DNA of 39,879 bases, from the NCBI GenBank assembly GCA_947378965.1, contig CANCMG010000035.1:1-39879 (forward strand), read 5' to 3'. Positions 14,685 to 33,381 of the stretch are shown here, piece after piece; the stretch's first letter is position 1; each line of letters opens with the position of its first letter. The stretch comes from Alcaligenaceae bacterium (GTDB lineage: Bacteria > Pseudomonadota > Gammaproteobacteria > Burkholderiales > Burkholderiaceae_B). The notes below the pieces were generated by a model. It ran no database searches and was not told the origin of the DNA. It saw only the letters and a list, made by a program, of their open reading frames with translations. A program made the translations under genes and the position numbers.

Positions 14685-17600
14685 AGTTTAAATTCTTCTT
14701 CGTCATCATTTAAGGGCGATTGCTGCATGTCGTGCTCCTGAGTACTCCAGAGCAAGTTATCAATATGTTGTCCCAATTGCGCGATCGTTGGCTTTTCGAA
14801 TAAGGTAGAGGCTGGAAAATGAATGTCGTAGTGTTGTTTAATGCGCGTCACCAAGCGCGTTGCCAGCAAAGAATGGCCCCCTAAATGAAAGAAATCGTCC
14901 TCGCGGCTGACTTGATCAAGGTTCAGGACTCCAGACATCATTCGTTCTAGTACCTGCTCAGTCTCAGTCGTCGGTGGTTGATAGTCGAGTTGCTGACGTC
15001 TGTCAGGCTTGGGTAACGCCTTTTTATCGAGCTTGCCGTTTGGTGTGAGCGGAAACGCTTCAAGAACCACCCACTCGGTGGGCACCATATACGCGGGTAG
15101 TTGTGTCTGTAACCAGCTTTCTAACGGTTCGAGCGCCGCCTCTGCGGGCCGCTCGAACGTCACGAACGCGGCCAGGCGCGTATCACTTGCTGAGATTTCA
15201 AAGACCTGCACAACGGCTTGTTTGACAGAATCATGCTTTTGAATAACGGCTTCAATTTCGCCGAGTTCAATCCTGAAGCCTCGCAACTTCACTTGTTGAT
15301 CCAGACGTCCCAGACAAACTAGGTTTTCACTATCGTCGTACTTTGCAAGGTCGCCTGTCGCATACAGTCGTGCGCCCGGCTCAGCGCTATAGCCGTCAGG
15401 TACAAATTTTTCAGCAGTCAAGGCAGGGCGATTGAGATAGCCATTGGCCAACCCCTTGCCACCAATGAACAGTTCACCGGCAAGACCATAGGGCAGTAAG
15501 TTGCCAAATTTGTCTTGAAGCACAAGCGTGGTGTTGCTCAAGGGTTCGCCAATCGGAATGCTGACCTCATACTCACGATCGGAGCTAAGCTCAAAGCGGG
15601 TTGACCATATCGTCGTTTCGGTCGGGCCGTACAGATTCCAGAGCTGTGCGGGAGTGCGTCTTAATTGATTAGCGAGGTCTACCGGAAAAGCCTCGCCGCC
15701 GCAAAGAATCTTTCTCAAGTCTTTTCCATCCCAGCCGGCCTCTAACAAGAGACGCCAAGTGATTGGCGTTGCTTGCATCACAGTCGCACCGCTATTTTTC
15801 ATCACCTTGATTAAGCTAGCACCATCCGAAGCTTGTTCTCGTTCTAGCAGAACAATCGTCGCGCCAGTGATCAGCGGTAAATAGATCTCTAGGCCAGCGA
15901 TATCAAAAGAAATGGTCGTGACGGCGAGTAAGGAATCTGTCCGATCTAGACCGGGCTTGTCTTTGACAGACAGTAGAAAATTGACAAGATCCGCTTGGGT
16001 GATCTGTACGCCTTTCGGATTGCCAGTGGACCCAGACGTATAAATGACGTAGGCGGGATTGAATGGGGATTGCAAGTCAGTCAGATTGTGGCTTGAAAAA
16101 GCCTTCAAGCTCTCAAGACTCAGTGGCAATAACTGGCAGGTCTCACTCAACGAGCTTGTGTGACGCGTGTCTTGTGGATCGACGATGAGTACACTGGCTC
16201 GGCTGTCCGAAATCATATACGAGACCCGCTCGCTCGGATATTCGGGATCAATCGGCACATAAGCGGCAGCTAGTTTTTGTATACCAAGCAGAGCAACGAT
16301 TAAAGAGGGTGATCGCTCTAGGCAGACTCCAATTAAGTCACCGGGCTTGACTCCGATGCTTTGAAGTTGTCTTGCAAACTGATTTGCTGCGCCATTAAGC
16401 GCCGCATAGCTCAAACTGTCATGCCCTAAAGTGATCGCAATTTTGTCGTGAGCTTGTTGAACTTGTGTCTCAAATAATTCAGGCAGGGTCAGTGCAAGCT
16501 CTGGAAGCTGGCGTTGACTGGTCATCATCGCTGCCCTCAGGCGGCGCTGGTCGTACTCTGTGGTCACACTAGCGTGCCAGCGACTGACGCTTGCCTCGGG
16601 ATGTGAACCGGCAAAGCTCAACAGACGGTGCAAGCTCTCTAAAAGCTGACTCACTGCCTTTTCATCAAAAATAGCCCGATCGTAAGACATCTTGACAGGG
16701 ACACGGTCGCCGCCTGACGCCGTAATGGTCAGCGGTAAGTTGGTTTGTTCGTGCAACTGAAGCGCATTGAAGGATAAAGCCTGTGCCTGCTCATCGATAC
16801 TGTCGTCTAACGGATAGTTTTCGAAGACCAAAATGCTGTTGAACAGCGCTGTTCTAGGAGGCAGTTCACTACAGGCCTGTATCGTCACCAGAGGCGTGTA
16901 TGCATATAAATCACTATCCATCTGCTTGTGCAAAAGCGTCGTCATGAACTGAACGATCGTTTGATTGGGTTGCAGTTTTGCACGTACGGGTAGGGTATTG
17001 ATAAAGAGACCGACCATCCCTTCGACCCCATCAAGCTCAGGAGGGCGGCCAGACACCGTTGCACCAAACACAATATCGTTAGACTGGCTGTAGATATGTA
17101 ACAGGGTGGCCCACGCACTTTGCAAGATATTGCTAAGCGTCAAACGATGCCGTTTGGCGATCTCAGCAAGCGCTCGACTCAGATCCTCGCTTAAGAGAAG
17201 ATTTAATTCAGCAAACTGTGAGGCCGACCCTTGAGTGTCTTGCCGAAGACTTTTTTCGATACCTAAAAAGGTAGGCGCCGAAAAATCTGCCAGATAGTTC
17301 AGCCAATATGTTTTTGCAACCTCAAGGTCTTGTTGTTGAAGCCAGGCGATATAGTTGCGGTATGGAGTCGGTAGCCGTAAGCCAGAATCCTCTGGGTTGT
17401 GATAATAATGAAGAACCTCTTTCATCAAAATCGGCAAGCACCAGCCATCAGTCAAGATATGATGATGGCTCCAGAGAAATTTCCAGTGCGTCGCAGAGAG
17501 CTTGAGCAGATAACAACGCATTAAGGGCGCAGTCTCGAGCGAGTAGTCTAGCAGCCGATCACGCAAGACCAGCTCTTGCCAGGCCTCTTGCTGTTGTATG

Positions 17601-20600
17601 GCTGAATCCTGCGCCCAGTCTAGCGTTGTCCACTCGAGCGTGACTTGACGCAGTACGACTTGGTGATCCGCTGTGTCACCACCTTCAAATATAAAAACAC
17701 GCAGGCTAGGGTGGCGCGCTAAAACCCGATCCCAAGCCTTGACGAAGGTGTTGGGTTCAAACTGACCCGACATTTCGCAACTCAACTGGATGATATAGGC
17801 GCCCGAGGCGGAGGCAAAGCGGCTATGAAAGGCCATCCCTTCTTGCATCGGTGAGAGCGGGTAGATATCTTCGAGGTTTTCTGCGTGAAGCGAAGTGAGG
17901 TCTGCGAAATGTTTCTCGCCGAGTGTTGCAAGTGGGAAGCTATCGCCAATAAACGGCTTGGCCTGACGCTCGGCACAGTGTCGGACGATGTTACGCAATT
18001 CGTTTAAATATAAAGCGGCAAAATCTTCAATTGTTTTGGTGGCAAAGACATTTTTGCTGTAGCTAATTTGCAAAATGAACTGGCCCGACGATACTCGCGA
18101 ATTGATATCGATCAGCGCTTGTCGCTGAGCCGCGCTCCCGACATCTGAGCCGGTGCGACCAGTCGCCTCATCGAGCAGTAGTTGCCCTTGCGCGCCTTGA
18201 TCAAACTGACCAAGATAATTAAAGCTAAGCGGACTTGGCGCTTGTTGAGTCAGTGCTAGCCTAGTCTGCTCGTTTGAATTGAGATAACGCAGCAAACCAT
18301 AGGTGAGACCATTTGCCGGAATATTTCGCATACGGTCTTTCATGCGGCGAATCGTTTGGGCAAGGTCTTCGTCTTTTCGGTAGCTCAGCCGTACCGGAAA
18401 CAACGAGGTAAACCAACCGATCGTCCGTGTCATATCGAGATCGTCAAATAAATCCTCTCGTCCATGCCCTTCAAGTGAAATTTCAAATTCTTGTAAATTC
18501 GTCCAACGACCAAGCGCATTGACCAACGCGGTCATGAGAATGTCGTTGATTTGTGTTCGGTAGACTTTCGGAACCTCAGTCAACAAAGACTGTGTCATTT
18601 CGGCGTCAAGTGAAGACTCCAAATGGATGGTCGACTCGAAGGTATTGCTTGATGGAACTGCGACAAAGTCAACCGGGAGGCTCGGCACTCGTTGGTTGAC
18701 TTGCGTTTGCCAGTATGTCAAATCTTTGAGTGCGTGCTGCGAATCGGCGTATTGGCTCAGAGCAGTGGTCCACTGGGCAAACGAGGACGTTTTGGGCTTC
18801 AGTTGCAATGGCAGATTCTGACGATGCAGAACAAGCAAAGACTCTAAGTCTTCGAGCAAGATTCGCCACGAGATGCCGTCAATCACGAGATGATGCACAA
18901 TCAGTAGCAGGCGATTTGCTTGGCCCGTTGGCATTTTAAAAAGAATCGCGCGAATCAGATCGCCAGTTTGTAACGCTAAAGACGTTTGGGCCTGTTGAGC
19001 AATATCGCCAATCAAAGCCTCGGCCTGATCAGCTGGGCTCGCTGACAGATCGTGAGACTCTACAATCGTAAATGGACTGTCGTGTTGGATGATGGCCTGA
19101 GTGATTTCAGCGTTGTCTGAAGTCACTAAAAATGTAGAGCGTAGTAGGTCGTGATGTTCAACAAGTCGGTGCAGGCTCTGCTCTAGGGCAACGGTTTCGA
19201 TTTGCTGGCTGACATTCAGGTACACCGACTGGTTAAAGTGCTGTGGACACACAGTAAAGTTTTCAAAAAACCAGTGCTGAATGGGGCCGAGTCCATAAGA
19301 GCCCGTCAGTTTGTCTTGAGGCGCAACGATCCGCTGAGTCGCGTTTGCGATGGTGGCCAATTGGGCAACCGTCTGTTGTTGAAACAATTGTTTAACTGAA
19401 AGCGTGATGCCGGATTGCTTGAGTCGACTGACGATTTGAATGCTCAGAATTGAATCGCCGCCCAAGTCAAAGAAATTGTCATGGATCCCGACATGATCAA
19501 TATCCAGCACGTCTTGCCAAATTTGACATAACAGTGCTTCAGTTTCATCGCGAGCCGCAACGTATTGAGTGCTCTCGTCTTGAAAAATCGGTGCTGGCAG
19601 TGCGTCGACATCTAATTTGCCGTTCGTTGTGACCGGTAGCGCGTCTAAAAAAGACATTCCTGCGGGCAGCATATATTCAGGCAGAAGGTTTCGCAGAGAA
19701 TTAAGCACCTCTGCCACACTGCTAATACCCTGCTGCTTCAACGCGAGATACGCATACAGTCGTGGCGAATTCGCCTGCGCCACGATGGTGACACACGCAT
19801 CTTTAATGTTAGGCAACGACAACAGAGCATTTTCTATTTCTGTCAGCTCGATCCTAAAACCTCGAATTTTGACCTGTTTATCTTTTCGGCCTTGAAACAG
19901 CAAAGGTCCGTCTGCAAGGTAGCGCGCAAAATCGCCCGAGCGATACAGCCTTTGCCCCGGTTGCGTCGCAAACGGGTCAGGAATAAATTTTTCGGCGGTC
20001 AAAGCGGGTTGATTGAGATAGCCGCGACTGACCTGCGGTCCACCGATCGATAATTCACCACCAAGATGAAGTAACCCAAGGTCTAGAAACTGGTCTAGCA
20101 ATCTGATGTTGGCTTGACTGACCGGTTTGCCGATAGGAATGTGGTCTTGCTTTTGCTGGCGCGGCACTGTGTACGCAGTACACATAATGGTTGTTTCGGT
20201 CGGACCGTACTCGTTAGTGAGTGCGATGTCGGGATATTTTTGATAATGATCTTCGGCAAGTTTGGGTAACAGGCTATCGCCACCCAAGATAATCTGACGC
20301 AGAGCTAAAAACTGACTCTGAGTGGCGAGTGTCAGTACCGGGCTGTAGAGGAGTGGTAACAGAACAAGATGTGAAATCTGTGTTTCAGCAATGCGTTGCA
20401 GCAGGGCCGTAGGGTCTGCAGCTAAGTCTTTCGGAGCGAGGTGTAAACAACCGCCCTGACAGAGCGTCCAGAAGATGTTTCCTGATGAGATGTCAAAGGC
20501 GTAAGGTTGTAAAAGCAATAAGCCAGAGACAGGGTCTGGATAAAAATCGTTTCGAGACTGTAAATAGGCAGCAAGATTCGAGCGTGATACACCGACCCCC

Positions 20601-23600
20601 TTGGGTGTTCCGGTCGATCCCGAGGTGTAGATGACATAAGCCAGAGACTCTTCGAGGTTTGCCCACGTTGGGTTGCCATCGTAGGTAACCGTGCGCAAAA
20701 GATCGTTGAGGTTGAGTGTTTGCACGCTCTTGTGTCGTGCCCCGTCTTCGGTGACAGCGCAAAGCAGGTGTCTAACCTTCGCTTCACTGAGCATGACCTC
20801 TTTGCGTTCGAACGGGGTCGCGGGCAAGATAGGAAGATAGGCTGCGCCTGCCTTCAAAATGCCCAACATGCTGATCACCATTTCAGGTGAAGGCTCAACA
20901 ATCAGGGCGACGACTGAGTCGTGACCGATTCCGAGGCTTCTGAGTTGTCGAGCTAGTTTGTTCGCTTGTCGGTTTAGTGCATCGAAGGTCAGTGCGTGGT
21001 TGCTGCCATCGGTTAGCGCAATGGCATCTGGCCGCAGCGCGGCCTCACGCTCGAATAAAGTCTGTGCACAGGGATAGTGCTGCGTGACAAGCGTTGGGTT
21101 GAACTCGACTAAGAACTGATGACGTTGCGCCAACGTTAACAAGGGCGTTTGTAGAAGCGTCGAGTAAGGCTTTTCAACCATTCGGCGTAGCAGTTGTGTG
21201 AAATGCTCGGCGAGTTCTTCTAGGGTACTCTCTTCGAAAAGATCAATGTTGTATTCAAAGACGCACCGTAAGCGATTTGACTCTTGTTGTATCGCTAAGG
21301 TCAGGTCAAACTTAGTGCTTGAGGTTTCGGCCTCGAGCGGCAACATTTTCAGATCGGAGTGATGAATACTTTCTTCGATCGCATTTTGAAGCACAAACAT
21401 TGTCTGAAAAATAGGCGCATGACTCAAGCTACGCTCAGGATGAATCGCATCGACAATCGATTCAAACGGTGTGTCTTGATTAGCTAGTCCGTCAAGCATC
21501 GTCTGGCGTATCTGTGCCAGCAGTTCGACGGTCGTGCTTTGAGGCTTGTGCAATATTCTGATCGGCAGTGTGTTGACGAACAGCCCAATGAGTTCATTCA
21601 GCTCAGAACGATTACGATTCGTGACAGGCGTGCCAATCACCAGATCACGCGTGTCGCAGTGCTTAGCCAACAGCGTGGCATAGCAGGCGAATAAGCCCAT
21701 AAACAGAGTCACGTCATTGGCTGCGCATAACCCCTTTAATTGCTGACTCAAGATATCGTCGATAAAAAACGTCCACGCACGCCCTTGATAGCCTTGTATC
21801 GACGGCCTCGGTTTGTCGATTGGTAAATTCAAAAGAGTGGGTGAGCCGTCTAACGTTTTTTTCCAGTAAGCGAGTTGGGTGTTGAGGGCTTCTGGATTGA
21901 GCCAGCGCTGTTGCCACGTGGCAAAATCGGCGTATTGAACTTTCAGCGAAGGCAAGTGATCAGGCTGATTGTGAGCGAACGCCTGGTATAGCGCTAACAA
22001 CTCTCGCTGCAGCACTAACATTGACGCTTCATCTGAAGCGATGTGATGCAAGGTGATCGCTAAGGCCCAGTGATTGCTGCTTAACTCAAGTAAATCGGCA
22101 CGAATTGAAATATCTTTTGCAAGGTCAAAGGGCTTTGTGTTCTTCTCAATGAGCCATTGTTGAACCTCTGCGTGTTGCTGCGAAGACGCTTCTAGTCGCG
22201 TTATCTCAAGCAGCGAGCGAGGTGTATCGACCACAACTGCAGCTGGTGCGCCATCTGTCTGCGTATAAACCGTTCGCAGAACTTCATGTCGCTTAACGAT
22301 TGTGACCAAAGCGCTGTTGAGCGCCTCTACGTTAACGTTACCGAGCAACTCAAGCGCGGTAGAAATATGATAATTGCTGTTGAGGCCTTCAAGCTGATCC
22401 AAGAACCATAGTCGTTTTTGTGAATACGACAGCACGGCTACCCGCCGTTGCTCTACGGTTTGAGCCAGAATGGGTGGGCTGACCTTTTTAATGCTTGAGT
22501 GGTGTGAGGATAAAAACTCGACCAATAAGGCAAGCGTCGGATGATCGAACAACGCTTGTACTTGAATATCCACGAGAAACTCATCACGAATTTTCGTGAT
22601 GATTTGAAGAGCAAGTAATGAATGGCCACCCAAATTAAAGAAGTTGTCGTGAATGTCAATGCGTTCGACCTTTAGCACGCTTGCCCAGACGGCTTCCATA
22701 CGCCGTTCGTGTTCATTGCGTGGGCCAATATATTCGGCCTGACTCGACAGACTCTTGATCTTAGGCAAAGCCTTGCGATCAATTTTTCCGTTGGGGGTTA
22801 AGGGCAAGTTCTCAAGAATCGCAATGTTTGAGGGCAACATGTACGACGGCAATTGTGCGGCGATCAGATTGCGTAATACCGTAGTCAGTTCTTGTGGATC
22901 AGAATACTGCGGATCCACGCTATCTTTTATTTCGATAAACGCGTTGAGCGTGACGTGATCTTGGTCGCTGACCTGGCAAACGGCGACCGCATTTTTTACC
23001 AACGGATGCTGTGCCAAGACTGACTCGATTTCACCTAGCTCAATCCGAAAGCCACGCAGCTTGACTTGAAAATCTGACCGACCAATATATTCAATATTGC
23101 CATTTTCTAGAAAACGCGCGACATCGCCAGTTTGATATATACGTTGCCCTGGCGTCAGACTAAAACACGACGGAATAAAACGTTCAGCTGTTAAGCCCGG
23201 TTCGTTCAGATAGCCGCGGCTCAGCCCTAAACCACCGATGTAGAGATCACCAGGGATCCCTAGCGGTGTCGAGTTTAAACTTGGATCAATGATAAAGATT
23301 GAGGTATTGGCAATTGGTTTGCCAATCGACGGATTTGTGTGTCCGTTGATATCGTTCAGATATAGTTGATTACGTGTTGACCAGATCGTTGTTTCGGTTG
23401 GCCCATAAACGTTCCACACTTCGGCATCACTCTTGAGCAATCGCTCGGCAAGCTCCGCCGACAAGGCTTCTCCTCCGCAAAGTGCTTGTTTGAGACCTAA
23501 CTGGGCAGGCTCAATACTTGCGAACAGTAATCGCCAAGTGGCTGGAGTGGCTTGCAGCGCGGTTGCCTGAGTCGCAAATAATAATTTAACCAGCGCGTGG

Positions 23601-25813
23601 CCGTCTCCTGCAGTCTCTTTGGGGACGAGAGCAATACGTGCGCCGCTGATTAAAGGCAGGTAGAGCTCAAGCGCCGCAATATCAAAGGATATCGTCGTGA
23701 CGGCTAGCAGAGTGCTGTCAGGCTTGAGACCTGGTTTTTCAAGCATGGTCTCAAGAAAATTATGTAAGGCGCCGTGGGTGATTTGTACGCCTTTGGGTTT
23801 TCCGGTCGAACCCGAAGTAAAAATCACATAGGCCAAACTGTCGGACGGCAGTCTGTTGCGTGTTGCAAGAAAATCTGTCGCCGAGGCGCGCTTGATGAGC
23901 TCCCAGTCAGAATCAAGACAGACCACTTCGACAGGATCTAGCGCAAAGATGGGCTGGGTGGCGGTCTGCGCAACAATCAGTCGAATGTGCGCGGTGTCAA
24001 CCATGTCTTTGATGCGATTTTTCGGATAACTCGGATCGATCGGAACATACGCAGCACCACTTTTTAAGATGCCGAGTAGTCCAACAATTAAAAGGATCGA
24101 GCGCTCGACACATAAACCAATCAACGTCTCAGTGTTCGCGCCTTGACCCCTTAAGTAAGACGCCAAGTGTGAGGCTCGCGCATTAAGCTCACCAAAAGAA
24201 ATCTGCTCAGTTTCAAATAAAACCGCAATGCGGTCTGGATATCTGATCGCTTGTTCTTCGAACAAGTCACAAATTGATTGCTGCGTCGGGTATTGCTGAT
24301 GCGTTTGGTTGAAGTCAAGCGTGAGTCGTTTGACTTCAGAGTCAGACGACAGCCGCAGGGCAGAGATTTTTTGCTTAGGATTTTGAAGAACTTCATCGAG
24401 AATGTTTTCGAAGTGCTCAATGAAGCGTTCAATGGTGCTGGCTTTAAACAAGTCGGTGTTGTATTCAAGCTCGGCAAATAATTGCTCGCTTTGTTCTTCG
24501 AACTTCAACGTGATGTCAAACATCGCCGTATTAGCGGCGATCGGGACGGCATTTAAATGCAGATCACCAATACGCAAACCGTCTCTTTCTTCATTTTGAT
24601 TTTGCAGAATCAACATGACCTGAAAGAGTGGAGAAAAGCTAGGGTTGCGCTCTGGATCGACCGCTTCGACTAGCCTCTCGAAGGGCAGATCCTGATGCTG
24701 ATAGGCTTCTAAGAAATTATCTCTGACATGAGTCAGCAGGTTTGCAAACGAGGCATCAGGATCTATGTCAGCGCGTAAGACCAAAGTGTTCACAAAAAAA
24801 CCAATGAGTTGTTCAAGCTCTATGGTCGTTCGATTGGCAATTGGCGAGCCAATGACAACAGTCTGTTGCCGACTGTAGCGTGCGATGAGCGTACAAAATA
24901 CGGCTTGTAGCACCACGAATAGTGAGGCGCCGATTGGTTTTCCAAGCAGTTTTAGCGACTGTAGTCGCTGCGCATCGATCGTAAAGTAAGTTGTTTTCCC
25001 TGCGTAACTCTGTCTAAGTGGGCGAGGGTAGTCTGCTGGTAGTTCAACTAGGCTCGGGATGCCTTTGAGTTTGTTTTTCCAGTATTTGACTAAGACGTCT
25101 GAGCGAGGACCGTCTAGTAAACGTCGTTGCCATTGCGCAAAGTCTGCATATTGAATTGGTAGGGGTAAGAGCGGGGACGAGGCGCCCTGTGAGAACGCTT
25201 CGTATAGTGTGCAAATCTCTTTTAAGAGGACATTGCCATTTGACCAACCATCTGAGACGATGTGGTGTACGACCATCAGAAGAATGTAACGTTCTTGACT
25301 GAATCTCACTAATTTCAAACGCAACAAATGATCTTGCTCAAGATCGAAAGGAGCGTGGCAGGTTGCTAAAGCAAGCCGTTCGTATTCGTCTTGCTGCTTG
25401 TTCGGCGCTAAGTCTTCTAAGTTAACGACCGCAATCTCTGTGTCTCTTGAGGGTCGGATAACTTGATAGGCTTGCCCGTCAATTGTATGAAAATTAGTTC
25501 TTAAGGCTTCATGGCGATGGCAAATCTCGCTAAAAACATTTTGAAGTACCGTAACGTTTAGGGGCCCAAGCAACTCGATCGCCGAAGGCATGTTGTAAGT
25601 CGCGTCAAGGCCATCTAACTGAGTCAAAAACCAAAGACGTTGTTGCGCAAACGACAACGGAGCTGGACTCGTCGGATCGTTTCGTCGCGCAATGGCTTCA
25701 CCGCGCTGCTGCTCAGCTGCACTGGCCTGGACTTTCGCCGCCTTAATTTTTTCTAGGAGCGCACGCTTAGCCGGGGATAGTGAACCAAGCCGAGCTTCAA
25801 AATTCTCATCCAT
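14681..25813 (-). CDS. Non-ribosomal peptide synthetase, C-A-T-C-A-T-E-C-A-T
   Basis: A 3710-residue, three-module NRPS, the first gene of the operon. C1 (about 50-480) has HHIVSDGWS near 184. A1 (about 500-1000) has TSGSTGKPKG near 665 and specificity residues DILQLGVIWK, glycine-like. T1 GGHS is near 1061. C2 has HHIASDE near 1255, with the motif glycine replaced by Glu. A2 (about 1560-2065) reads about DIGLIGEIMK, which I cannot assign. T2 GGDS is near 2116. The E domain has HHLVIDGISW near 2306, EGHGRE, and FNYLGQFD near 2530, so residue two should be D. C3 (YPLSPMQEG near 2648, HHHILTDGW near 2783) is the DCL type expected after an E domain. A3 reads DILQLGLIWK, the classic glycine code. 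T3 GGHS is near 3643. It has no TE and ends in an acidic tail (DDEEEFKL) suited to the next protein's docking domain. Beginning with a C domain implies an acylated donor. The shine-dalgarno before ATG 25813 is weak. Confidence 0.96.
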   Translation of the reverse strand: MDENFEARLGSLSPAKRALLEKIKAAKVQASAAEQQRGEAIARRNDPTSPAPLSFAQQRLWFLTQLDGLDATYNMPSAIELLGPLNVTVLQNVFSEICHRHEALRTNFHTIDGQAYQVIRPSRDTEIAVVNLEDLAPNKQQDEYERLALATCHAPFDLEQDHLLRLKLVRFSQERYILLMVVHHIVSDGWSNGNVLLKEICTLYEAFSQGASSPLLPLPIQYADFAQWQRRLLDGPRSDVLVKYWKNKLKGIPSLVELPADYPRPLRQSYAGKTTYFTIDAQRLQSLKLLGKPIGASLFVVLQAVFCTLIARYSRQQTVVIGSPIANRTTIELEQLIGFFVNTLVLRADIDPDASFANLLTHVRDNFLEAYQHQDLPFERLVEAVDPERNPSFSPLFQVMLILQNQNEERDGLRIGDLHLNAVPIAANTAMFDITLKFEEQSEQLFAELEYNTDLFKASTIERFIEHFENILDEVLQNPKQKISALRLSSDSEVKRLTLDFNQTHQQYPTQQSICDLFEEQAIRYPDRIAVLFETEQISFGELNARASHLASYLRGQGANTETLIGLCVERSILLIVGLLGILKSGAAYVPIDPSYPKNRIKDMVDTAHIRLIVAQTATQPIFALDPVEVVCLDSDWELIKRASATDFLATRNRLPSDSLAYVIFTSGSTGKPKGVQITHGALHNFLETMLEKPGLKPDSTLLAVTTISFDIAALELYLPLISGARIALVPKETAGDGHALVKLLFATQATALQATPATWRLLFASIEPAQLGLKQALCGGEALSAELAERLLKSDAEVWNVYGPTETTIWSTRNQLYLNDINGHTNPSIGKPIANTSIFIIDPSLNSTPLGIPGDLYIGGLGLSRGYLNEPGLTAERFIPSCFSLTPGQRIYQTGDVARFLENGNIEYIGRSDFQVKLRGFRIELGEIESVLAQHPLVKNAVAVCQVSDQDHVTLNAFIEIKDSVDPQYSDPQELTTVLRNLIAAQLPSYMLPSNIAILENLPLTPNGKIDRKALPKIKSLSSQAEYIGPRNEHERRMEAVWASVLKVERIDIHDNFFNLGGHSLLALQIITKIRDEFLVDIQVQALFDHPTLALLVEFLSSHHSSIKKVSPPILAQTVEQRRVAVLSYSQKRLWFLDQLEGLNSNYHISTALELLGNVNVEALNSALVTIVKRHEVLRTVYTQTDGAPAAVVVDTPRSLLEITRLEASSQQHAEVQQWLIEKNTKPFDLAKDISIRADLLELSSNHWALAITLHHIASDEASMLVLQRELLALYQAFAHNQPDHLPSLKVQYADFATWQQRWLNPEALNTQLAYWKKTLDGSPTLLNLPIDKPRPSIQGYQGRAWTFFIDDILSQQLKGLCAANDVTLFMGLFACYATLLAKHCDTRDLVIGTPVTNRNRSELNELIGLFVNTLPIRILHKPQSTTVELLAQIRQTMLDGLANQDTPFESIVDAIHPERSLSHAPIFQTMFVLQNAIEESIHHSDLKMLPLEAETSSTKFDLTLAIQQESNRLRCVFEYNIDLFEESTLEELAEHFTQLLRRMVEKPYSTLLQTPLLTLAQRHQFLVEFNPTLVTQHYPCAQTLFEREAALRPDAIALTDGSNHALTFDALNRQANKLARQLRSLGIGHDSVVALIVEPSPEMVISMLGILKAGAAYLPILPATPFERKEVMLSEAKVRHLLCAVTEDGARHKSVQTLNLNDLLRTVTYDGNPTWANLEESLAYVIYTSGSTGTPKGVGVSRSNLAAYLQSRNDFYPDPVSGLLLLQPYAFDISSGNIFWTLCQGGCLHLAPKDLAADPTALLQRIAETQISHLVLLPLLYSPVLTLATQSQFLALRQIILGGDSLLPKLAEDHYQKYPDIALTNEYGPTETTIMCTAYTVPRQQKQDHIPIGKPVSQANIRLLDQFLDLGLLHLGGELSIGGPQVSRGYLNQPALTAEKFIPDPFATQPGQRLYRSGDFARYLADGPLLFQGRKDKQVKIRGFRIELTEIENALLSLPNIKDACVTIVAQANSPRLYAYLALKQQGISSVAEVLNSLRNLLPEYMLPAGMSFLDALPVTTNGKLDVDALPAPIFQDESTQYVAARDETEALLCQIWQDVLDIDHVGIHDNFFDLGGDSILSIQIVSRLKQSGITLSVKQLFQQQTVAQLATIANATQRIVAPQDKLTGSYGLGPIQHWFFENFTVCPQHFNQSVYLNVSQQIETVALEQSLHRLVEHHDLLRSTFLVTSDNAEITQAIIQHDSPFTIVESHDLSASPADQAEALIGDIAQQAQTSLALQTGDLIRAILFKMPTGQANRLLLIVHHLVIDGISWRILLEDLESLLVLHRQNLPLQLKPKTSSFAQWTTALSQYADSQHALKDLTYWQTQVNQRVPSLPVDFVAVPSSNTFESTIHLESSLDAEMTQSLLTEVPKVYRTQINDILMTALVNALGRWTNLQEFEISLEGHGREDLFDDLDMTRTIGWFTSLFPVRLSYRKDEDLAQTIRRMKDRMRNIPANGLTYGLLRYLNSNEQTRLALTQQAPSPLSFNYLGQFDQGAQGQLLLDEATGRTGSDVGSAAQRQALIDINSRVSSGQFILQISYSKNVFATKTIEDFAALYLNELRNIVRHCAERQAKPFIGDSFPLATLGEKHFADLTSLHAENLEDIYPLSPMQEGMAFHSRFASASGAYIIQLSCEMSGQFEPNTFVKAWDRVLARHPSLRVFIFEGGDTADHQVVLRQVTLEWTTLDWAQDSAIQQQEAWQELVLRDRLLDYSLETAPLMRCYLLKLSATHWKFLWSHHHILTDGWCLPILMKEVLHYYHNPEDSGLRLPTPYRNYIAWLQQQDLEVAKTYWLNYLADFSAPTFLGIEKSLRQDTQGSASQFAELNLLLSEDLSRALAEIAKRHRLTLSNILQSAWATLLHIYSQSNDIVFGATVSGRPPELDGVEGMVGLFINTLPVRAKLQPNQTIVQFMTTLLHKQMDSDLYAYTPLVTIQACSELPPRTALFNSILVFENYPLDDSIDEQAQALSFNALQLHEQTNLPLTITASGGDRVPVKMSYDRAIFDEKAVSQLLESLHRLLSFAGSHPEASVSRWHASVTTEYDQRRLRAAMMTSQRQLPELALTLPELFETQVQQAHDKIAITLGHDSLSYAALNGAANQFARQLQSIGVKPGDLIGVCLERSPSLIVALLGIQKLAAAYVPIDPEYPSERVSYMISDSRASVLIVDPQDTRHTSSLSETCQLLPLSLESLKAFSSHNLTDLQSPFNPAYVIYTSGSTGNPKGVQITQADLVNFLLSVKDKPGLDRTDSLLAVTTISFDIAGLEIYLPLITGATIVLLEREQASDGASLIKVMKNSGATVMQATPITWRLLLEAGWDGKDLRKILCGGEAFPVDLANQLRRTPAQLWNLYGPTETTIWSTRFELSSDREYEVSIPIGEPLSNTTLVLQDKFGNLLPYGLAGELFIGGKGLANGYLNRPALTAEKFVPDGYSAEPGARLYATGDLAKYDDSENLVCLGRLDQQVKLRGFRIELGEIEAVIQKHDSVKQAVVQVFEISASDTRLAAFVTFERPAEAALEPLESWLQTQLPAYMVPTEWVVLEAFPLTPNGKLDKKALPKPDRRQQLDYQPPTTETEQVLERMMSGVLNLDQVSREDDFFHLGGHSLLATRLVTRIKQHYDIHFPASTLFEKPTIAQLGQHIDNLLWSTQEHDMQQSPLNDDEEEFKL

Positions 25814-26087: not shown

Positions 26088-27248
26088 ATGATTGATTTGA
26101 CACCGTTTATTGGCAAGATGAACGACCTAGACACGCACATTACGCCAACGCCTGATTTTTATGAAAATGTTGCCGGAAAAGAAGCCGGTAAGTTTTATGC
26201 CGACATGTGCCGAAAAGCCATTGAGGACATGTCAGAGGATGAAAAAGATTCAGTCCCCGAGATCATGGGCACCGAGGCGACCGACTATAACGAGAAAACG
26301 GTTTGGAACTTAAAGGGTTCTGGTGCTGCGGGCGCTTACACCTCTGAGGGGCGTTTGAAGGCACTCGATTACATGGGCGTGAACCGAGCCTTTGTATTTG
26401 CTGACCCAGCGCTTCAGATGGGTGCGTTTTCTGACTCACCGATGGGAATATCCGCGATGCGCGGTTGGAACGATTATTCGATCGCGTTTAGCCGAACCGA
26501 ACCGAAGCGTTTGTTACCGGTCGCGATTTTAAATACGCACAACATTGCAGCGGCGCTAGAAGAAACAAAGCGTCTGCTCAAAGCGGGCATTCGGGCGTTT
26601 GTCATTGCAAGTGCGATTCCTCCAGGCGGTGGCTCACCTGCGCACGCCAATTTCGATCCACTGTGGGCGCTGCTTCAAGAGGCAAACGCGACCGCCATCC
26701 TGCATGCTGGCGGCGAGCAAGGGTTTATGGCAAGCGACGCTTGGTCAAAAGACGTTGAGCATCTTAGCTTCGAAACGTCGTTCCGCCATCATGGCGAGCC
26801 TGGCGACACGTACATGATGGCAAGCTTCATTTTTTCGCCCCAAAATTTTTTGGCAACGATTATTTTGGGCGGCGTATTTGAGCGCTTTCCTCGTTTACGT
26901 TTTGCAGTCGTTGAATTGGGCTCGGTGTGGTTTGCTCCTCTCGCGATGCACTTAGACCACGTTGCGAAGATATTCAAACATCGCTTGAAGGGCGTTTTGT
27001 CGATGACGCCTTCCGATTACATGCGTCGTAATATCAGAGTGACTCCTTATCGCTTCGAGCCTGTGGGCGATCTGGTAGAAAGGTTTGGTTTTGACGAATG
27101 TTATTGCTATAGCAGCGATTTTCCGCATCCTGAGGGTGGCAGAACGCCAATCCAGGATTTTGAGAAACATATTGAACGCCTCGGTCAGCGTAACGCCGAG
27201 AAGTTTTATGTCACAAATGCCGAGTGGGTGATGCCTGAAACGGTATAG
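26088..27248 (+). CDS. Amidohydrolase family 2 metal-dependent hydrolase or decarboxylase
   Basis: A 386-residue protein of the amidohydrolase-2 TIM-barrel family, which includes aminocarboxymuconate-semialdehyde decarboxylase and related hydrolases and non-oxidative decarboxylases. Visible metal-site elements are D15-x-H17 (LDTHIT), H206 (ILHAGGE) and D344 (SSDFPHP), in the expected order. No signal peptide is seen, so it is cytosolic. The start is supported by GAGG nine bases before the ATG. It is divergent from the NRPS operon across a 274-base promoter region and is followed after 30 bases by the cupin oxygenase gene, probably as one transcript. A role in tailoring or precursor supply for the NRPS product is possible only by position. 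The substrate cannot be deduced, and it could equally belong to an unrelated catabolic route. Confidence 0.85.
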   Translation: MIDLTPFIGKMNDLDTHITPTPDFYENVAGKEAGKFYADMCRKAIEDMSEDEKDSVPEIMGTEATDYNEKTVWNLKGSGAAGAYTSEGRLKALDYMGVNRAFVFADPALQMGAFSDSPMGISAMRGWNDYSIAFSRTEPKRLLPVAILNTHNIAAALEETKRLLKAGIRAFVIASAIPPGGGSPAHANFDPLWALLQEANATAILHAGGEQGFMASDAWSKDVEHLSFETSFRHHGEPGDTYMMASFIFSPQNFLATIILGGVFERFPRLRFAVVELGSVWFAPLAMHLDHVAKIFKHRLKGVLSMTPSDYMRRNIRVTPYRFEPVGDLVERFGFDECYCYSSDFPHPEGGRTPIQDFEKHIERLGQRNAEKFYVTNAEWVMPETV

Positions 27249-27278: not shown

Positions 27279-28136
27279 GTGAAAGCGATGACGAAAGAGT
27301 CAAGTCAACTTAATCTGTATCCCGGCCAAATCCCTCAACGAAAATTGAAGGATCTGGTCGACTCTGGGGTTGACATCGGATCCTTTTGCTCGCAATCAAA
27401 ACGGCCGTTGTTGATCACAGATATCTATGAGGTTTTTCCAAGTCTGGCGCAATGGAGCCCAGAGTTTCTTCATGAGAAAGTTGGAGACAAAACAGTCGAG
27501 GTAAATACGTCTGAGACCGATGTGTTTCAGGAATACCACCGGCCGATTCAGATGAGTCTGAAAGAGTACTCTCATGAAATGAGTACAGATAGTCCCAAAG
27601 TCGGAAGACGCTTATACCTAGGTGCTTTGGGGATTAATCAGTCTTTTCCCGAATTAAAGTCAGAGATCCTGTTTGATACTTTGCTACCGCAAGACAGATT
27701 GGGGCTTAAGTATTTGTGGTACGGCCGTGGCGGTAATACGACGGGGCTGCATTACGACACGTCAGAAAATTTCTTCATGCAAATGTATGGTCAAAAACGT
27801 TGGTTGATCTCTGAACCCAATAGTTTTTTAAATCTACATCCGCGCTCAGCTTTATCAAATTATCCAAAGATTACTGACTTTAATCCGCTCAAGCCTGACT
27901 TTGACAAGTTTCCGAAAGCACAAAAAGTTAAATTTTATGATCTGACGATGAATCCGGGCACGGTTCTGTATGTGCCGGCCTATTGGTGGCATCAAGTTAC
28001 TAGTCATAGCACGATTATCTCAGTCAATATTTGGTGCAAAACCAGTATTTTCAAAGCTGAGTGGGGGGCTCTTCAACTGATCCCGCTCTATATGAGAAAT
28101 TTGTTGGGCTTTAACATTTTTCCAAAGCGGTTTTGA
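27279..28136 (+). CDS. Cupin_8/JmjC-type Fe(II)/2-oxoglutarate-dependent oxygenase
   Basis: A protein of 285 residues with the JmjC-like cupin fold signature. The iron-binding H158-x-D160 lies in GLHYDTSENF and the distal H238 in YWWHQV, giving a complete 2-His-1-carboxylate facial triad. Members of this family hydroxylate amino-acid side chains in proteins, ribosomal proteins, or peptidyl and free amino-acid substrates. The GTG at 27279 is chosen because AAGG lies nine bases upstream; an ATG nine bases downstream (27288) is the alternative. It lies 30 bases after the amidohydrolase gene and is probably co-transcribed. Beside an NRPS operon, hydroxylation of a residue of the peptide is a reasonable but unproven guess. 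Confidence 0.85.
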   Translation: MKAMTKESSQLNLYPGQIPQRKLKDLVDSGVDIGSFCSQSKRPLLITDIYEVFPSLAQWSPEFLHEKVGDKTVEVNTSETDVFQEYHRPIQMSLKEYSHEMSTDSPKVGRRLYLGALGINQSFPELKSEILFDTLLPQDRLGLKYLWYGRGGNTTGLHYDTSENFFMQMYGQKRWLISEPNSFLNLHPRSALSNYPKITDFNPLKPDFDKFPKAQKVKFYDLTMNPGTVLYVPAYWWHQVTSHSTIISVNIWCKTSIFKAEWGALQLIPLYMRNLLGFNIFPKRF

Positions 28137-28206: not shown

Positions 28207-28257
28207 CTAAAGCTGCTTCGCCTTAAACTGCTTCGTCTTACGCCGCTTCGGCTAAAG
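28207..28257 (-). repeat. 15-bp tandem repeat spanning the stop codon of the fusion gene
   Basis: Three 15-base units (28207, 28222, 28237) plus a partial fourth share the core YTGCTTCG or CCGCTTCG. Read on the minus strand in frame, they give AEAA-stop, DEAV-stop, then GEAL, so the gene's termination codon lies within the repeat and a second in-frame stop follows 15 bases later. It sits in the gap between two convergent genes. No clear terminator hairpin was found there. Confidence 0.8.
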
Positions 28258-30466
28258 ACAATTCAATCTGGATATTGCCCTTTAACGCATTCGAGTAGGG
28301 GCAAATTTTATTTGCGGCGTCAATCAACTCTTGTGCTAGCAAGTTCGCAAGTCCCGGAAGACTGATCAGCAGATTGACTGCGATCGCAATCCCTTGCGGT
28401 GAGGTTCCTAGAGACACTTTGGCTTCGATTGAGGTGGTTGCCGGCAGTTCAACGAGCTTCTGGCTGGCCGCCATTTCTAGAGACCTGAAAAAAGATGCCG
28501 AATAACTCGAAGCAAATAATTGCTCGGGATTAGACGCCTCGCCTTGGCCCCCCATGACTTTTGGCACGCTAAGCTTGATGTTTAGCATACCGTCATCGCT
28601 AGACGAGTAACCTGAGGCTCCGCCGGTGGTACGTACAAGCGTCGAGTAAATGATATTGTCAAGCTTTGTACTAGTCTGCTTGGGTTTCAGATGGCTTGGA
28701 ATTTCATCTTTTAATAATTCTTTATAGCGCATCAGTAGAGAGGGCTGATCGTAAAAGAATCGTTTGCCATTGCTCAGCATGCGCAATAAACGTCTTGAAA
28801 AGTTTTTTAGCGCGTCGTCGTGAATATTCTCGGTGGTAAAGCGTTCGCGTGGCTCGCATATTGAACTGACATATTCAACTAAAAATCCGCGTCGTGGTCG
28901 ATCTGTCGTATTTGAGGCCGCGCCATGCCAAATATGACCGATTGCCAAAATTGCCGAGCCTTTTGGCACCACCACTTTTATCGCATCGTTTGGTATTGGC
29001 CCTTTCGGTGTGTTGCCGCCCCAAGGTAAGTTCACGCGTTGGCGTTTTTTATGCGAATGAGGCACAACATACAAAGGCCCATTCGTTTCTGTAAAAGCAT
29101 CAAAAGCAATGATGGTCTGTATGACCAGAGGGTACTCGGCGGGCGGAAGAGGGCAGCCGGGATTCTGTTCGAAAGGCGAGTCTTGATGAGGTCCAAGCGC
29201 GTAATTATCAGGGGCGACACGACTTGTGCTTGCCGCAAGATTATCGATTTTGCAATCCCAACCTAGAAGCGCCTGAACAATCAGAGACACTATAGGGTGA
29301 TCAACTAATTCAATAGTCTCTGGGGCAGTATTGAAAATACTATCTTTAGTGTGAGCTCCAAAACCATCCCATCGTCCCAGTTTCTGCATTTTTCCTGCAT
29401 CGAGAGAGGGTAGTAGTCGGTCAGCAAGATCCTTGAAAAGCTCTGGCAGAATGACAAAACCCGCGCCTTCTGTCAGTGCGAATTTCACCTCAGCTAAAAA
29501 ATTTGTATCGTACAGATGCGTTGTTTTAAAAGATCCGTCTGGCGTCAGAAACCTGGCCTCAATGTTTGGAACATCCTGCCTCAGGTACCGGCTCTCGCGA
29601 AAATACTGACCAAATTCGGCGTAGCAATAAGCCTGTTGATTTAATTGATCGATTGCTCTGACATCAGAAGCGTCAAGAACAATCGATGGCGCATTCGCAA
29701 TCTCAGCAATGTGCTCTAGCTTGGTGCTGCCGGGGATTGGAATCACACCATGGGCACAGCCCCACGCCAGAACGACTTGAGCAGGCGTCTTTTGATATTT
29801 TTTGGCAAGATCAGTGATGCACGAATGCTCTAGGATCGCTAAACGAGACTCTTTCCAACCAAAATTGAAGGGCGAGTGAGCGACGATCTGAATATTATTT
29901 TTTGCACAGAAATTCTTTAGCTCAGGATTAAACGCAAAGGGGTTGTATTCGACTTGATTGCAGAAGGGTTTAATCTTTGCAATATGCAATAGGCGTTGAA
30001 GCTCGATGATATTAAAGTTAGAGACGCCGATCGACTTGACCAACCCACTCGCGACTAACAGTTCTAGGCGAGGCCATATTTCTTCAATAATAAATTCTTC
30101 AGGGTAGCCTTCGTCATCGGTTTTAACCGGCCAGTGAATCACCAATGAATCGATAAAGCCTATTTTTAAATCTTCAATGTAAGCTTTGATATTGTCATCG
30201 ATGGATCGATCGACCGCGTCATAGTCAAATTGACGATTTTTTCCGAGCGACGTCACCCAAAGCTTGACGCACAGATGGACGTCGCTACGGTTGATGTGAT
30301 TGTCGATTAAGCAATCCGCAAACTGACTTAACGCACCAACGGGATAATAGGTTGATGTATCAAAAAAACGTATTCCAGACTTTAAGGCATGATCCAGAGA
30401 CGGATAGCTGATGCCGTCTTTTAATCCAAGACCGAGTCCAATTGGAAATGTGTTGTTATTGATCAT
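28238..30466 (-). CDS. Three-domain fusion: aldo/keto reductase - phytanoyl-CoA dioxygenase - degenerate Ohr/OsmC
   Basis: One uninterrupted 742-residue frame joins three enzymes normally encoded separately. Residues 1-295 form an aldo/keto reductase with the full tetrad D36, Y41, K68 and H111 and the segments SIGVSNF and IPGSTK, so it should be an NAD(P)H-dependent carbonyl reductase. Residues 296-600 form a PhyH-type Fe(II)/2-oxoglutarate dioxygenase with H427-x-D429 (GPHQDSPF), distal H514 (WHGAASN) and a following RRGF arginine. Residues 601-742 are clearly Ohr-like (GGASG, NPEQLFAS, CPYSNALKGNI). However, the peroxidatic cysteine position is Ser658, and the usual GGRDG arginine is Ala617. 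The resolving-type Cys722 remains, 64 residues on, as in Ohr. The start ATG has no strong ribosome site. The gene lies 105 bases after the binding-protein operon, on the same strand. Reductase and oxygenase activity are likely; peroxidase activity is not. Confidence 0.9.
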   Translation of the reverse strand: MINNNTFPIGLGLGLKDGISYPSLDHALKSGIRFFDTSTYYPVGALSQFADCLIDNHINRSDVHLCVKLWVTSLGKNRQFDYDAVDRSIDDNIKAYIEDLKIGFIDSLVIHWPVKTDDEGYPEEFIIEEIWPRLELLVASGLVKSIGVSNFNIIELQRLLHIAKIKPFCNQVEYNPFAFNPELKNFCAKNNIQIVAHSPFNFGWKESRLAILEHSCITDLAKKYQKTPAQVVLAWGCAHGVIPIPGSTKLEHIAEIANAPSIVLDASDVRAIDQLNQQAYCYAEFGQYFRESRYLRQDVPNIEARFLTPDGSFKTTHLYDTNFLAEVKFALTEGAGFVILPELFKDLADRLLPSLDAGKMQKLGRWDGFGAHTKDSIFNTAPETIELVDHPIVSLIVQALLGWDCKIDNLAASTSRVAPDNYALGPHQDSPFEQNPGCPLPPAEYPLVIQTIIAFDAFTETNGPLYVVPHSHKKRQRVNLPWGGNTPKGPIPNDAIKVVVPKGSAILAIGHIWHGAASNTTDRPRRGFLVEYVSSICEPRERFTTENIHDDALKNFSRRLLRMLSNGKRFFYDQPSLLMRYKELLKDEIPSHLKPKQTSTKLDNIIYSTLVRTTGGASGYSSSDDGMLNIKLSVPKVMGGQGEASNPEQLFASSYSASFFRSLEMAASQKLVELPATTSIEAKVSLGTSPQGIAIAVNLLISLPGLANLLAQELIDAANKICPYSNALKGNIQIELSLAEAA

Positions 30467-30571: not shown

Positions 30572-31705
30572 TCATTTACTTGTTTTAAGTTCAACTAATT
30601 TTTCGAGCGCTTCGGTATTGTAGTCAAACTCTTGGTCTTGATCGCTTCTAAACCACTTCCAGATTAAAACCAATATAGAGAACAAACTCATCAACAATTG
30701 AAACACGGTGCTCAGTTTATCAGTGAACTCTGGCGTTACCATCGGCTTTTTACTATTAAGGTAAAGCATCGTGCCGGCAGAGACTGGATAGCCAGAAGGA
30801 ATCAGCAGATCCTCCTCAACAAGCTTCTGACTAAAACGACTATTAACTTGAGGCCCATATAAGGCTTTTAATAACTCGGCGATGGCCTTAGGCTCAACCT
30901 TTGCATTGGCCACTAAATGAAGATTGACACCAGCGAGCGTCATGTCTTTTGACGGTACGGGTGGAATAATGCTGTACATGTATTCACTAAGCGTCACCTT
31001 CGTAATCCAACTTAAGCGCTTGGCGAGCGCGGCAGGAAATGGCATGGCTAATACGTGGTAATCGTGCCTCTTGACAAAAAAATCTACTAAAACAGAGGGC
31101 GCATAGGACACCTCAACAATGACGTCTGGCAAGGTTTCAGGGCGCATACCGATCAGTTCTTCGTTCGAAAAGTTTGTTTCCACATAGTCTGAATCAGCAA
31201 CAAAGTCTAGATGAGAGAGTATTTGACGAGCCAGAATCCTGGTGGTTTCTCGGCGCTCACCCATGTTGATCACTTTGCCTGTTAAGTCCTCCAGATTTTT
31301 GATGCTTGGTTTCACTAAAAAATGAATAAACTCTGGGGGCAGGGTTACCACATGCCTGACGTTTGGAAAGGAGTTGACGAGGCCCCCTGGAACTAACGCC
31401 AGATCCACTTTTCCTGAGTTCACCAATTCTAAGGCGTCGAGCGATCCAGCAGTTTTGACGACTTTTAACGACAAGAAGTTTTCGGCTGCCTCATCTTGAA
31501 GAAGTTTGATGAGGAAATGACGCTCAGATAAAACACTTCCACTCGTCACAGAAAGTATGTAATTGTGAGGAATCAAGTTAAAGATGAGTTTTGCAGAAAA
31601 AAGCAGCAAGAGCGCAATTAAAACGCTTGCCAAAATACGTCGACCCTTTTCATGGCGTCGCGCTTTTTCTAAATGTGTGACGACTTGCTGTTTCAGATCT
31701 ACCAT
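30572..31705 (-). CDS. Membrane-anchored TAXI/NMT1-like solute-binding protein
   Basis: A 377-residue protein with a hydrophobic segment at about 24-45, a periplasmic-binding fold resembling TAXI-type TRAP or NMT1 receptors (segments SGSVLSERH, DLALVPGG and LTGKVINMGERRE), and a second hydrophobic segment at about 335-352 followed by a charged C-terminal tail. The two membrane segments suggest a tethered periplasmic domain with both termini in the cytoplasm rather than a free receptor. GAGG lies five bases before the ATG. The gene begins two bases after the preceding binding-protein gene ends, so it is the third member of a tight operon. No TRAP or ABC permease is present nearby, so a role in sensing rather than transport is possible. 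The ligand is unknown. Confidence 0.75.
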   Translation of the reverse strand: MVDLKQQVVTHLEKARRHEKGRRILASVLIALLLLFSAKLIFNLIPHNYILSVTSGSVLSERHFLIKLLQDEAAENFLSLKVVKTAGSLDALELVNSGKVDLALVPGGLVNSFPNVRHVVTLPPEFIHFLVKPSIKNLEDLTGKVINMGERRETTRILARQILSHLDFVADSDYVETNFSNEELIGMRPETLPDVIVEVSYAPSVLVDFFVKRHDYHVLAMPFPAALAKRLSWITKVTLSEYMYSIIPPVPSKDMTLAGVNLHLVANAKVEPKAIAELLKALYGPQVNSRFSQKLVEEDLLIPSGYPVSAGTMLYLNSKKPMVTPEFTDKLSTVFQLLMSLFSILVLIWKWFRSDQDQEFDYNTEALEKLVELKTSK

Positions 31706-31707
31706 CG

Positions 31708-32556
31708 CTACCTCACCCTGAGCGCGCCGCTATCTGCCAGAAGCGTTTGGCCTTCGTCAGAAAGAACGAATGCTATCAATGTCTTTGAGATATCACTGGC
31801 ATCATCGCGAATCACCAAAAATAGTTGCCGTACAAGTGGATACAGGCCCAAGCCTATACTTCTTTGATCCATCTCAATGCCATCAATGCTAAGTGGCCTA
31901 ATTTTTAAGGTCGACTCTTTAGTGCTCAGGTATCCCTGTTGACTGATAAAGCCAATCGCCAATGGATTATTCGAAACGTGTTCGGCCATCGCCTGATTTG
32001 AGGGCAAGACTTTGGCTTGCTCGTGAACAAAGCCACCTTCTAATAAGACTTGCTCAACGCTTTTTTTGGCGGTTTCACCATCTGGTCGACTGTACACCTG
32101 AATCGGTGCGTCTGGCCCACCTAGTTCTTTCCAATTTGTGATCTCTCGCTGAAAGACCTTGCGAGCGTGGATCGTAGAAATATTTTTAATCACTGAGTGA
32201 TTGTTAACGATGATTCCAACGGTTTCAACGCCGATCAGATATTCAAGAAAATTGAGTTTATCTTCTGGTACGAGACGATTAGAAATCATTGCAACATCAA
32301 TTGACCCGCGTTCTAGCGCGATCAATCCGCCATGCGAGTACCCGCCTTCTATGAGTACGTCAGCCTCTGGATAGTATTTCAGGAAGGCCTCAATGACTCG
32401 AGCCTCTAGCAATCGCTTGACGACCGTTGCACCGCCGATAATCAGCGGTTTGCGTCGCCGAGATTTTAGAAGCTCATTGTAAAAATTAGCGGCACCAACC
32501 GCACAGATTGCACCGATGCCTACGCCCACTCCTTTGAGAACAGTTCTGCGGTTCAT
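31708..32556 (-). CDS. PstS-like substrate-binding protein with twin-arginine signal
   Basis: A 282-residue protein of the phosphate-type (PstS, PBP-like) periplasmic-binding superfamily, with segments GGATVVKRLLE, GSIDVAMISNRL, REITNWKELGG and PLAIGFISQQGY. The N-terminus NRRTVLKG followed by a glycine- and alanine-rich hydrophobic stretch matches a twin-arginine export signal, predicting a folded protein in the periplasm or tethered to the membrane. It starts three bases after the preceding homologous gene and ends two bases before the TAXI-like gene. No PstC, PstA or PstB homologue lies in the window. Phosphate itself as ligand is not established; the family also binds other oxyanions and organic ligands. 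Confidence 0.8.
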   Translation of the reverse strand: MNRRTVLKGVGVGIGAICAVGAANFYNELLKSRRRKPLIIGGATVVKRLLEARVIEAFLKYYPEADVLIEGGYSHGGLIALERGSIDVAMISNRLVPEDKLNFLEYLIGVETVGIIVNNHSVIKNISTIHARKVFQREITNWKELGGPDAPIQVYSRPDGETAKKSVEQVLLEGGFVHEQAKVLPSNQAMAEHVSNNPLAIGFISQQGYLSTKESTLKIRPLSIDGIEMDQRSIGLGLYPLVRQLFLVIRDDASDISKTLIAFVLSDEGQTLLADSGALRVR

Positions 32557-32559
32557 GAA

Positions 32560-33381
32560 TTATCCAATCGAAATCCAACCCATGTCTTTGATGATTGCCT
32601 GTCCTGTTTTTTGGGAGACGCAGTAGTCCAAGAACTTCTGTACTTGGTCGCTGGCATCAATCTTAGAAAACAGTCTCAGTTCTTGGCTCAGCAAATATTG
32701 TTTTTTCGAAATTGTTTCGCTCGAAGGGTAGTGATCATCGACCCGCACAATCGTAGAGCCCGCCGTGTACGCTGGAACCCAACTCAAATAGGCAATGGAT
32801 TGCCGATTATTCTCAACTGACTGGGTGATCGCTTTATTACTGTTCAAGGTCTTCGATTCAATCGTGACATGAGAGTTTTCACCCATCACCAAACTCCGCC
32901 AAATCGCAAAAGCTTGATGAGTAGGATGCGGCGAATAGAGGTCGATTTTTCCTCCGTCTTGCCAGCCAAACTCTTTCCAATCTTTTGCCCGCCCAGAGAA
33001 TATTCGTTTGAGATCGTGTTGCGTTAAGTTTTTTACAGGATTAGATGGATGAACAATCACAGCAATGGCATCGTGTGCGATCAGCGTGTATTTGTATTCG
33101 CTAATTTTGTCGTGTATTTTTCGATGTAATTCATCTGGCATGTTGCTAGCCACCATGCCAATATCTGCCGTGCCTTGGAAGACTGATTTGTATCCATGCA
33201 CGCTGTGACCCATCGTTAGGGTAAGCTCGACTGAAGGGAAATCAGTCATATATTGATAGCCAATCTTTTGAATGATCGGTTTGACTGACTCTGACCCGCG
33301 GATTTCTAGTCTGTTGATTGGGCTTGACTGCGCCTGTGTCATGGTTTTTCTTGGCTCCGCTTGTGACATGACTGCTTGCAT
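32560..33381 (-). CDS. PstS-like substrate-binding protein lacking a signal peptide
   Basis: A protein of 273 residues related to the adjacent PstS-like protein: GSESVKPIIQKIGYQY, GTADIGMVASNM, RIFSGRAKDWKEFG and QSIAYLSWVPAY are typical of this superfamily. Unlike usual members, its N-terminus is hydrophilic (MQAVMSQAEPRKT), with no recognisable Sec, Tat or lipoprotein signal. An in-frame stop lies two codons before the ATG at 33381, so no upstream extension is possible. Other starts are ATG 33369 and ATG 33342; the last has GGAG 12 bases upstream. The 5' end coincides exactly with a 37-base duplication, so loss of an ancestral signal peptide by rearrangement is conceivable. First gene of the three-gene binding-protein operon. 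Export is uncertain. Confidence 0.75.
   Translation of the reverse strand: MQAVMSQAEPRKTMTQAQSSPINRLEIRGSESVKPIIQKIGYQYMTDFPSVELTLTMGHSVHGYKSVFQGTADIGMVASNMPDELHRKIHDKISEYKYTLIAHDAIAVIVHPSNPVKNLTQHDLKRIFSGRAKDWKEFGWQDGGKIDLYSPHPTHQAFAIWRSLVMGENSHVTIESKTLNSNKAITQSVENNRQSIAYLSWVPAYTAGSTIVRVDDHYPSSETISKKQYLLSQELRLFSKIDASDQVQKFLDYCVSQKTGQAIIKDMGWISIG

Follow-up and report, generated by a model that had tools for sequence, protein, structure and literature searches.

A single gene in the window, by which we mean the whole 39,879-nucleotide contig (C35) of a freshwater Alcaligenaceae bacterium analysed here, encodes a protein of 742 residues in which an aldo/keto reductase (AKR), a PhyH dioxygenase and a degenerate Ohr-like domain (pseudo-Ohr) are joined in one chain, and this gene lies inside a hybrid PKS-NRPS cluster. 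The architecture is new while the component families are known, and membership of the biosynthetic cluster is the best clue to the substrate of the fusion. From its sequence and gene context, we judge the chances to be evenly balanced that the fusion tailors, in one protein chain, the long, fatty-acid-like beta-amino polyketide chain of a lipopeptide-type product; in this enzyme PhyH would oxidise, the AKR would reduce and the pseudo-Ohr would hold the chain or dimerise the enzyme.

The frame of the fusion runs from ATG to TAA with no internal stops, and its AKR, PhyH and OsmC matches all exceed the Pfam curated cut-offs. The features of the window that bear on this study are given below, where Sheuella stands for Sheuella amnicola NBD-18, also a member of the Alcaligenaceae and described in PMC10535154 as the type strain.

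1-5889, minus strand: PKS1 (KS-AT-DH-ER-KR by Pfam), cut by the contig end; 64% identical to Sheuella PKS1
5886-14684, minus strand: NRPS-PKS of 2932 aa with a thioesterase at its end (Pfam)
14681-25813, minus strand: NRPS of 3710 aa with four Condensation, three AMP-binding and three carrier stretches (Pfam)
26088-27248, plus strand: Amidohydro_2 gene of the cluster (Pfam PF04909); an 82% identical gene lies beside the Sheuella fusion
27279-28136, plus strand: Cupin_8/JmjC-like hydroxylase gene of the cluster (Pfam PF13621); a 70% identical gene lies in the Sheuella cluster
28238-30466, minus strand: AKR-PhyH-pseudo-Ohr fusion gene, 742 aa
28256-28651, minus strand: pseudo-Ohr domain, residues 606-737 (NCBIfam TIGR03561, Pfam OsmC and lost catalytic residues)
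28493-28495, minus strand: codon of Ser658, which replaces the peroxidatic Cys (Cys in 17/17 stand-alone Ohr frames)
28616-28618, minus strand: codon of Ala617, which replaces the catalytic Arg (Arg in 17/17 stand-alone Ohr frames)
28886-29350, minus strand: PhyH domain, residues 373-527 (Pfam PF05721, E 7.9e-18)
29639-30400, minus strand: AKR domain, residues 23-276 (Pfam PF00248, Aldo_ket_red, E 2.2e-44)

The three Pfam matches bear out the original prediction of one continuous frame with three domains, and the AKR tetrad (D36, Y41, K68, H111) and PhyH iron site (H427, D429, H514) that it had called complete were found at those positions. The tetrad is invariant in all four fusion members identified in this study, and the iron site is present in both full-length members. 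The iron site is of the HxD...H hydroxylase type, as opposed to the HxG of halogenases; the domain aligns with the 2-oxoglutarate dioxygenase SptF (E 1.2e-6), as does a pair of Arg residues (525-526) behind the iron site. The AKR domain is of the broad DkgA/DkgB-like kind, though it scores far under the cut-offs of those models. NADPH preference in AKRs is associated with Lys and Arg residues after the IPKS motif; in the fusion, Gly246 and His252 replace the Lys and Arg of two stand-alone AKRs (L009, L010).

The three-domain fusion is real. The homologue in Sheuella is 739 aa long, 71% identical and aligns without gaps across residues 1-739, which settles the worry raised in the original prediction that the domains might have been brought together by misassembly; an assembly join or frameshift is ruled out by the presence of the same frame in other genomes. 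Two further genomes of the genus carry the beginning of the fusion, each cut at a contig end: G004 has residues 1-302 only (90% identical) and G013 has residues 4-374 (81% identical), a fragment that spans the AKR-PhyH junction and reaches just into the PhyH domain as defined by Pfam. The last residues of the G013 fragment are odd because its contig (C506) begins with an adapter-like stretch, which we take to be Illumina adapter (L003 1-21). In all, three genomes show the AKR-PhyH junction and two show the PhyH-Ohr junction.

The join is also rare. The fusion was found in 4 of the 32 genus genomes. Outside the genus, no match spanning two domains was among those listed for 268 genomes of the family (E up to 1e-20), and none was reported from 399 genomes of the order or 398 of the phylum at E up to 1e-40, a threshold at which strongly diverged fusions would be missed; the family, order, class and phylum genome sets overlap. 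Within the genomes searched, this agrees with the original claim of an unusual architecture. The PhyH part alone matched in 5 of 369 class genomes, including its own, the other four matches being stand-alone frames of 273-315 aa, and in 1 of 379 order genomes, which was its own. On plasmids, none of 1537 matching records covered 80% of the fusion. Of the 14 plasmid records with a match to the PhyH part, one was matched across 80% of its length, and the three plasmid PhyH records inspected were stand-alone genes. Short exact peptides were also searched for in 84,980 species genomes, an approach that detects close relatives only; this returned Sheuella and the G004 record alone, and no description of an AKR-PhyH-Ohr fusion was found in the open-licence literature searched.

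The original prediction of an Ohr-like C-terminal domain holds as far as the family is concerned. The NCBIfam Ohr model TIGR03561 accepts the domain, and Pfam OsmC matches residues 640-736 (E 3.5e-11). However, the prediction overlooked the loss of the peroxidatic Cys and the catalytic Arg. According to PMC5962072, the catalytic triad of Ohr is made up of Cys, Arg and Glu. In both full fusions, Ser658 and Ala617 occupy the first two of these positions, whereas all 17 stand-alone Ohr frames aligned (loci L005-L008, L013-L020 and L042-L046), which were selected on an NPE motif regardless of the Cys, retain the peroxidatic Cys and the TGGR Arg. Glu648 and the resolving Cys722 are kept in both full fusions. 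Because the peroxidatic Cys and catalytic Arg are lost, the third domain is termed a pseudo-Ohr and should not function as a thiol peroxidase. The nearest stand-alone Ohr frames are 48-51% identical to this part of the fusion, and in a midpoint-rooted tree of 19 sequences the Ohr parts of the two fusions form one fully supported branch. Between the window and Sheuella, the Ohr part is 66% identical with a pN of 0.20 against a pS of 0.68, so that the domain is under constraint despite its lost chemistry.

The cluster that surrounds the fusion gene continues beyond the window. Another contig of the same genome, C41, carries the end of PKS2, PKS3, PKS4 (3131 aa), PKS5, a glycosyltransferase and a Gfo/Idh/MocA oxidoreductase. 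C35 and C41 probably adjoin, since both break near a shared PKS repeat and the arrangement of genes in Sheuella is consistent with this; the repeat (window 484-856 and C41 near its end, L048) is 373 bp long, 98.1% identical and located between PKS1 and PKS2. PKS4 has KS and AT, recognised by motifs, followed by aminotransferase, luciferase-like monooxygenase, C and A domains; mycosubtilin synthase A and PuwE are the PDB matches of its aminotransferase and monooxygenase parts. On C41, a PKS protein with an aminotransferase thus leads into an NRPS module. The same arrangement, a PKS with aminotransferase and luciferase-like monooxygenase ahead of an NRPS module, is found in the beta-amino lipopeptide clusters for mycosubtilin, puwainaphycin and occidiofungin. 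PMC9494966 lists a hydroxylase, halogenase, transaminase and glycosyltransferase among the occidiofungin genes and describes an amino acid of polyketide origin whose side chain bears xylose. However, the ocf gene table there (PMC9494966) contains no AKR-PhyH-Ohr gene.

Further along C41 there is a 2OG-Fe oxygenase gene, and near the glycosyltransferase end of the cluster there is a Trp_halogenase gene (L047 7018-8511); both may or may not belong to the cluster. A 264-aa and a 260-aa protein (L047 11069-11863 and L058 7429-8211), 30% identical to each other and without a Pfam match, have by eye an HxD...H pattern like that of Fe/2OG oxygenases.

In Sheuella the order is fusion, two amidohydrolase genes, PKS1-PKS4, glycosyltransferase, MocA and Cupin_8, and PKS4 ends in the aminotransferase. 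No A-domain core motif was detected in 40 kb around the Sheuella fusion, compared to four in the window, and the Sheuella counterparts of the two NRPSs of the window are on another contig, one 43% identical over most of its length and the other 44% over nearly all. Since the Sheuella fusion adjoins the PKSs and the NRPS-like proteins are elsewhere, the fusion goes with the polyketide-aminotransferase half of the cluster. Those NRPS-like proteins, 43-44% identical to those of the window, are held by a second PKS-NRPS cluster in Sheuella (L051-L053; G023 contig C5, 120071-163602). A search of PMC10535154 for cluster terms found none. Around the fusion gene itself, the composition profile showed no sharp step, a promoter and terminator scan gave counts near the shuffled means (12 vs 10.4 and 11 vs 8.4), and PADLOC returned no match that would indicate a defence function.

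The distribution of the fusion follows that of the PKS line. A full-length PKS3 orthologue (>2300 bits) is present in 5 of the 32 genus genomes; four of these five have the fusion, compared to 0 of the 27 others (Fisher p 1.4e-4, a value that ignores kinship and comes from a set with several incomplete genomes). The fifth genome, G027, is 89% complete; the contig with its amidohydrolase and Cupin_8 genes extends for about 5 kb into other genes, and the fusion is not among them. Conversely, G013 has the fusion but gave no Cupin_8 match. Because the cluster in G027 has no adjacent fusion, the fusion is either not essential to the cluster, and may be optional as a tailoring enzyme can be, or lies in the part of the genome missing from the incomplete G027 assembly.

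These data suggest a role on the polyketide chain. Using Fe(II) and 2-oxoglutarate, the PhyH domain would oxidise a carbon of the chain, and the AKR domain would use NAD(P)H to reduce a carbonyl on the same chain; an alcohol set in this way might then be used by the glycosyltransferase of the cluster. The Ohr fold would have been kept for holding the chain or for dimerisation of the enzyme and not for peroxide reduction. Active Ohr is a homodimer whose substrates are elongated, hydrophobic fatty-acid hydroperoxides, as stated in PMC5962072. Counting against the tailoring role are the findings in G027 and G013 and the retention of Cys722 and Glu648, for which mere scaffolding would have no need. 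The original prediction had read the physical coupling as consecutive hydroxylation and carbonyl reduction of one substrate. The intact AKR and PhyH catalytic residues in one chain agree with that part, and by analogy oxidation followed by carbonyl reduction is plausible; however, the degenerate third domain and the biosynthetic cluster had been overlooked. The two domains may also act on different atoms or molecules. We would offer it as a speculation, and a rather doubtful one, that a former peroxidase fold now clamps the acyl chain and dimerises a two-step oxidase-reductase, which would act on a carrier- or peptide-bound beta-amino chain without release of the intermediate.

PhyH dioxygenases of secondary metabolism provide a precedent for the oxidation. 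The closest of these are SptF and TlxJ, both in the PDB, and TmuB; the HxD...H site and the Arg of the fusion align with SptF. However, identity to these enzymes is low, and those that were inspected or matched are stand-alone proteins. TmuB is a 2-oxoglutarate dioxygenase that hydroxylates the polyketide part of thiomarinol, according to PMC11956838. A PhyH protein of plasmid pTML1 (H32) is a remote match to the PhyH part of the fusion and is probably TmuB.

The strongest competitor to the tailoring role is that three activities were joined for common expression or stability only, for example an AKR acting against reactive aldehydes, a tailoring PhyH and an Ohr relic. Unequal conservation of the parts between the window and Sheuella (PhyH core 82%, AKR 66%, Ohr 66%, with synonymous sites saturated in the AKR and PhyH parts) would fit such independent activities, as would the broad kind of AKR to which the first domain belongs, though again far below the model cut-offs. 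However, the domain order is kept gap-free in both full-length members and the fusion gene follows the cluster, and for these reasons we regard this explanation as possible but unlikely.

A special case of the tailoring role is an exchange of amine for alcohol on one carbon, in which PhyH would hydroxylate the amine-bearing carbon, ammonia would leave and the AKR would reduce the resulting ketone. The PKS aminotransferase of the cluster makes such an amine likely. However, it would be wasteful to remove an amine immediately after its installation, and related lipopeptides use this amine for ring closure. KanK, the reductase of the kanamycin pair compared here, is not known to be an AKR or a relative of the AKR of the fusion. 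In kanamycin biosynthesis, as described in PMC5533434, a 2-oxoglutarate dioxygenase (KanJ) turns kanamycin B into 2'-oxokanamycin, which a nicotinamide-dependent reductase (KanK) reduces with NADPH, so that an amine is converted via a ketone into an alcohol. These are two proteins with a sugar substrate, whereas the fusion is one chain, and the kinship between its PhyH domain and KanJ is not significant (kanamycin B dioxygenase, E 0.6). This exchange is considered improbable.

Lastly, a working organic-hydroperoxide peroxidase that shields the enzyme or product from peroxides of uncoupled oxygenase cycles is very improbable, since two of the three triad residues (PMC5962072) are missing from both full fusions, even though the domain scores 129.1 bits against the TIGR03561 cut-off of 88.85, automatic annotation would agree, Cys722 and Glu648 remain and none of the 32 genus genomes gave a separate Ohr match at E up to 0.001. 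Compared with Ohr peroxidases (TIGR03561, PF02566), the domain is alike over its whole length and shares the Glu and the resolving Cys; it differs in the changes of Cys to Ser and Arg to Ala and in its placement behind two other enzymes. An automatic name of Ohr peroxiredoxin would mislead on the function of such a domain.

If the tailoring role is correct, the Ohr fold can shed its redox function and take on the handling of long chains, and one protein can combine an oxidation with a reduction where another pathway uses two proteins. The cluster of Sheuella amnicola NBD-18 indicates a place in a type strain where this can be tested.

On the other side of the fusion gene, the window has three consecutive genes for periplasmic-binding-like proteins (30572-33381), one NMT1_3/TAXI-like and two PstS-like, and the PstS-like protein at 32560-33381 has no obvious signal peptide by eye. 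The trio is absent beside the Sheuella fusion, at least two of its genes lie beside the fusion in G013, and all three do so in G004.
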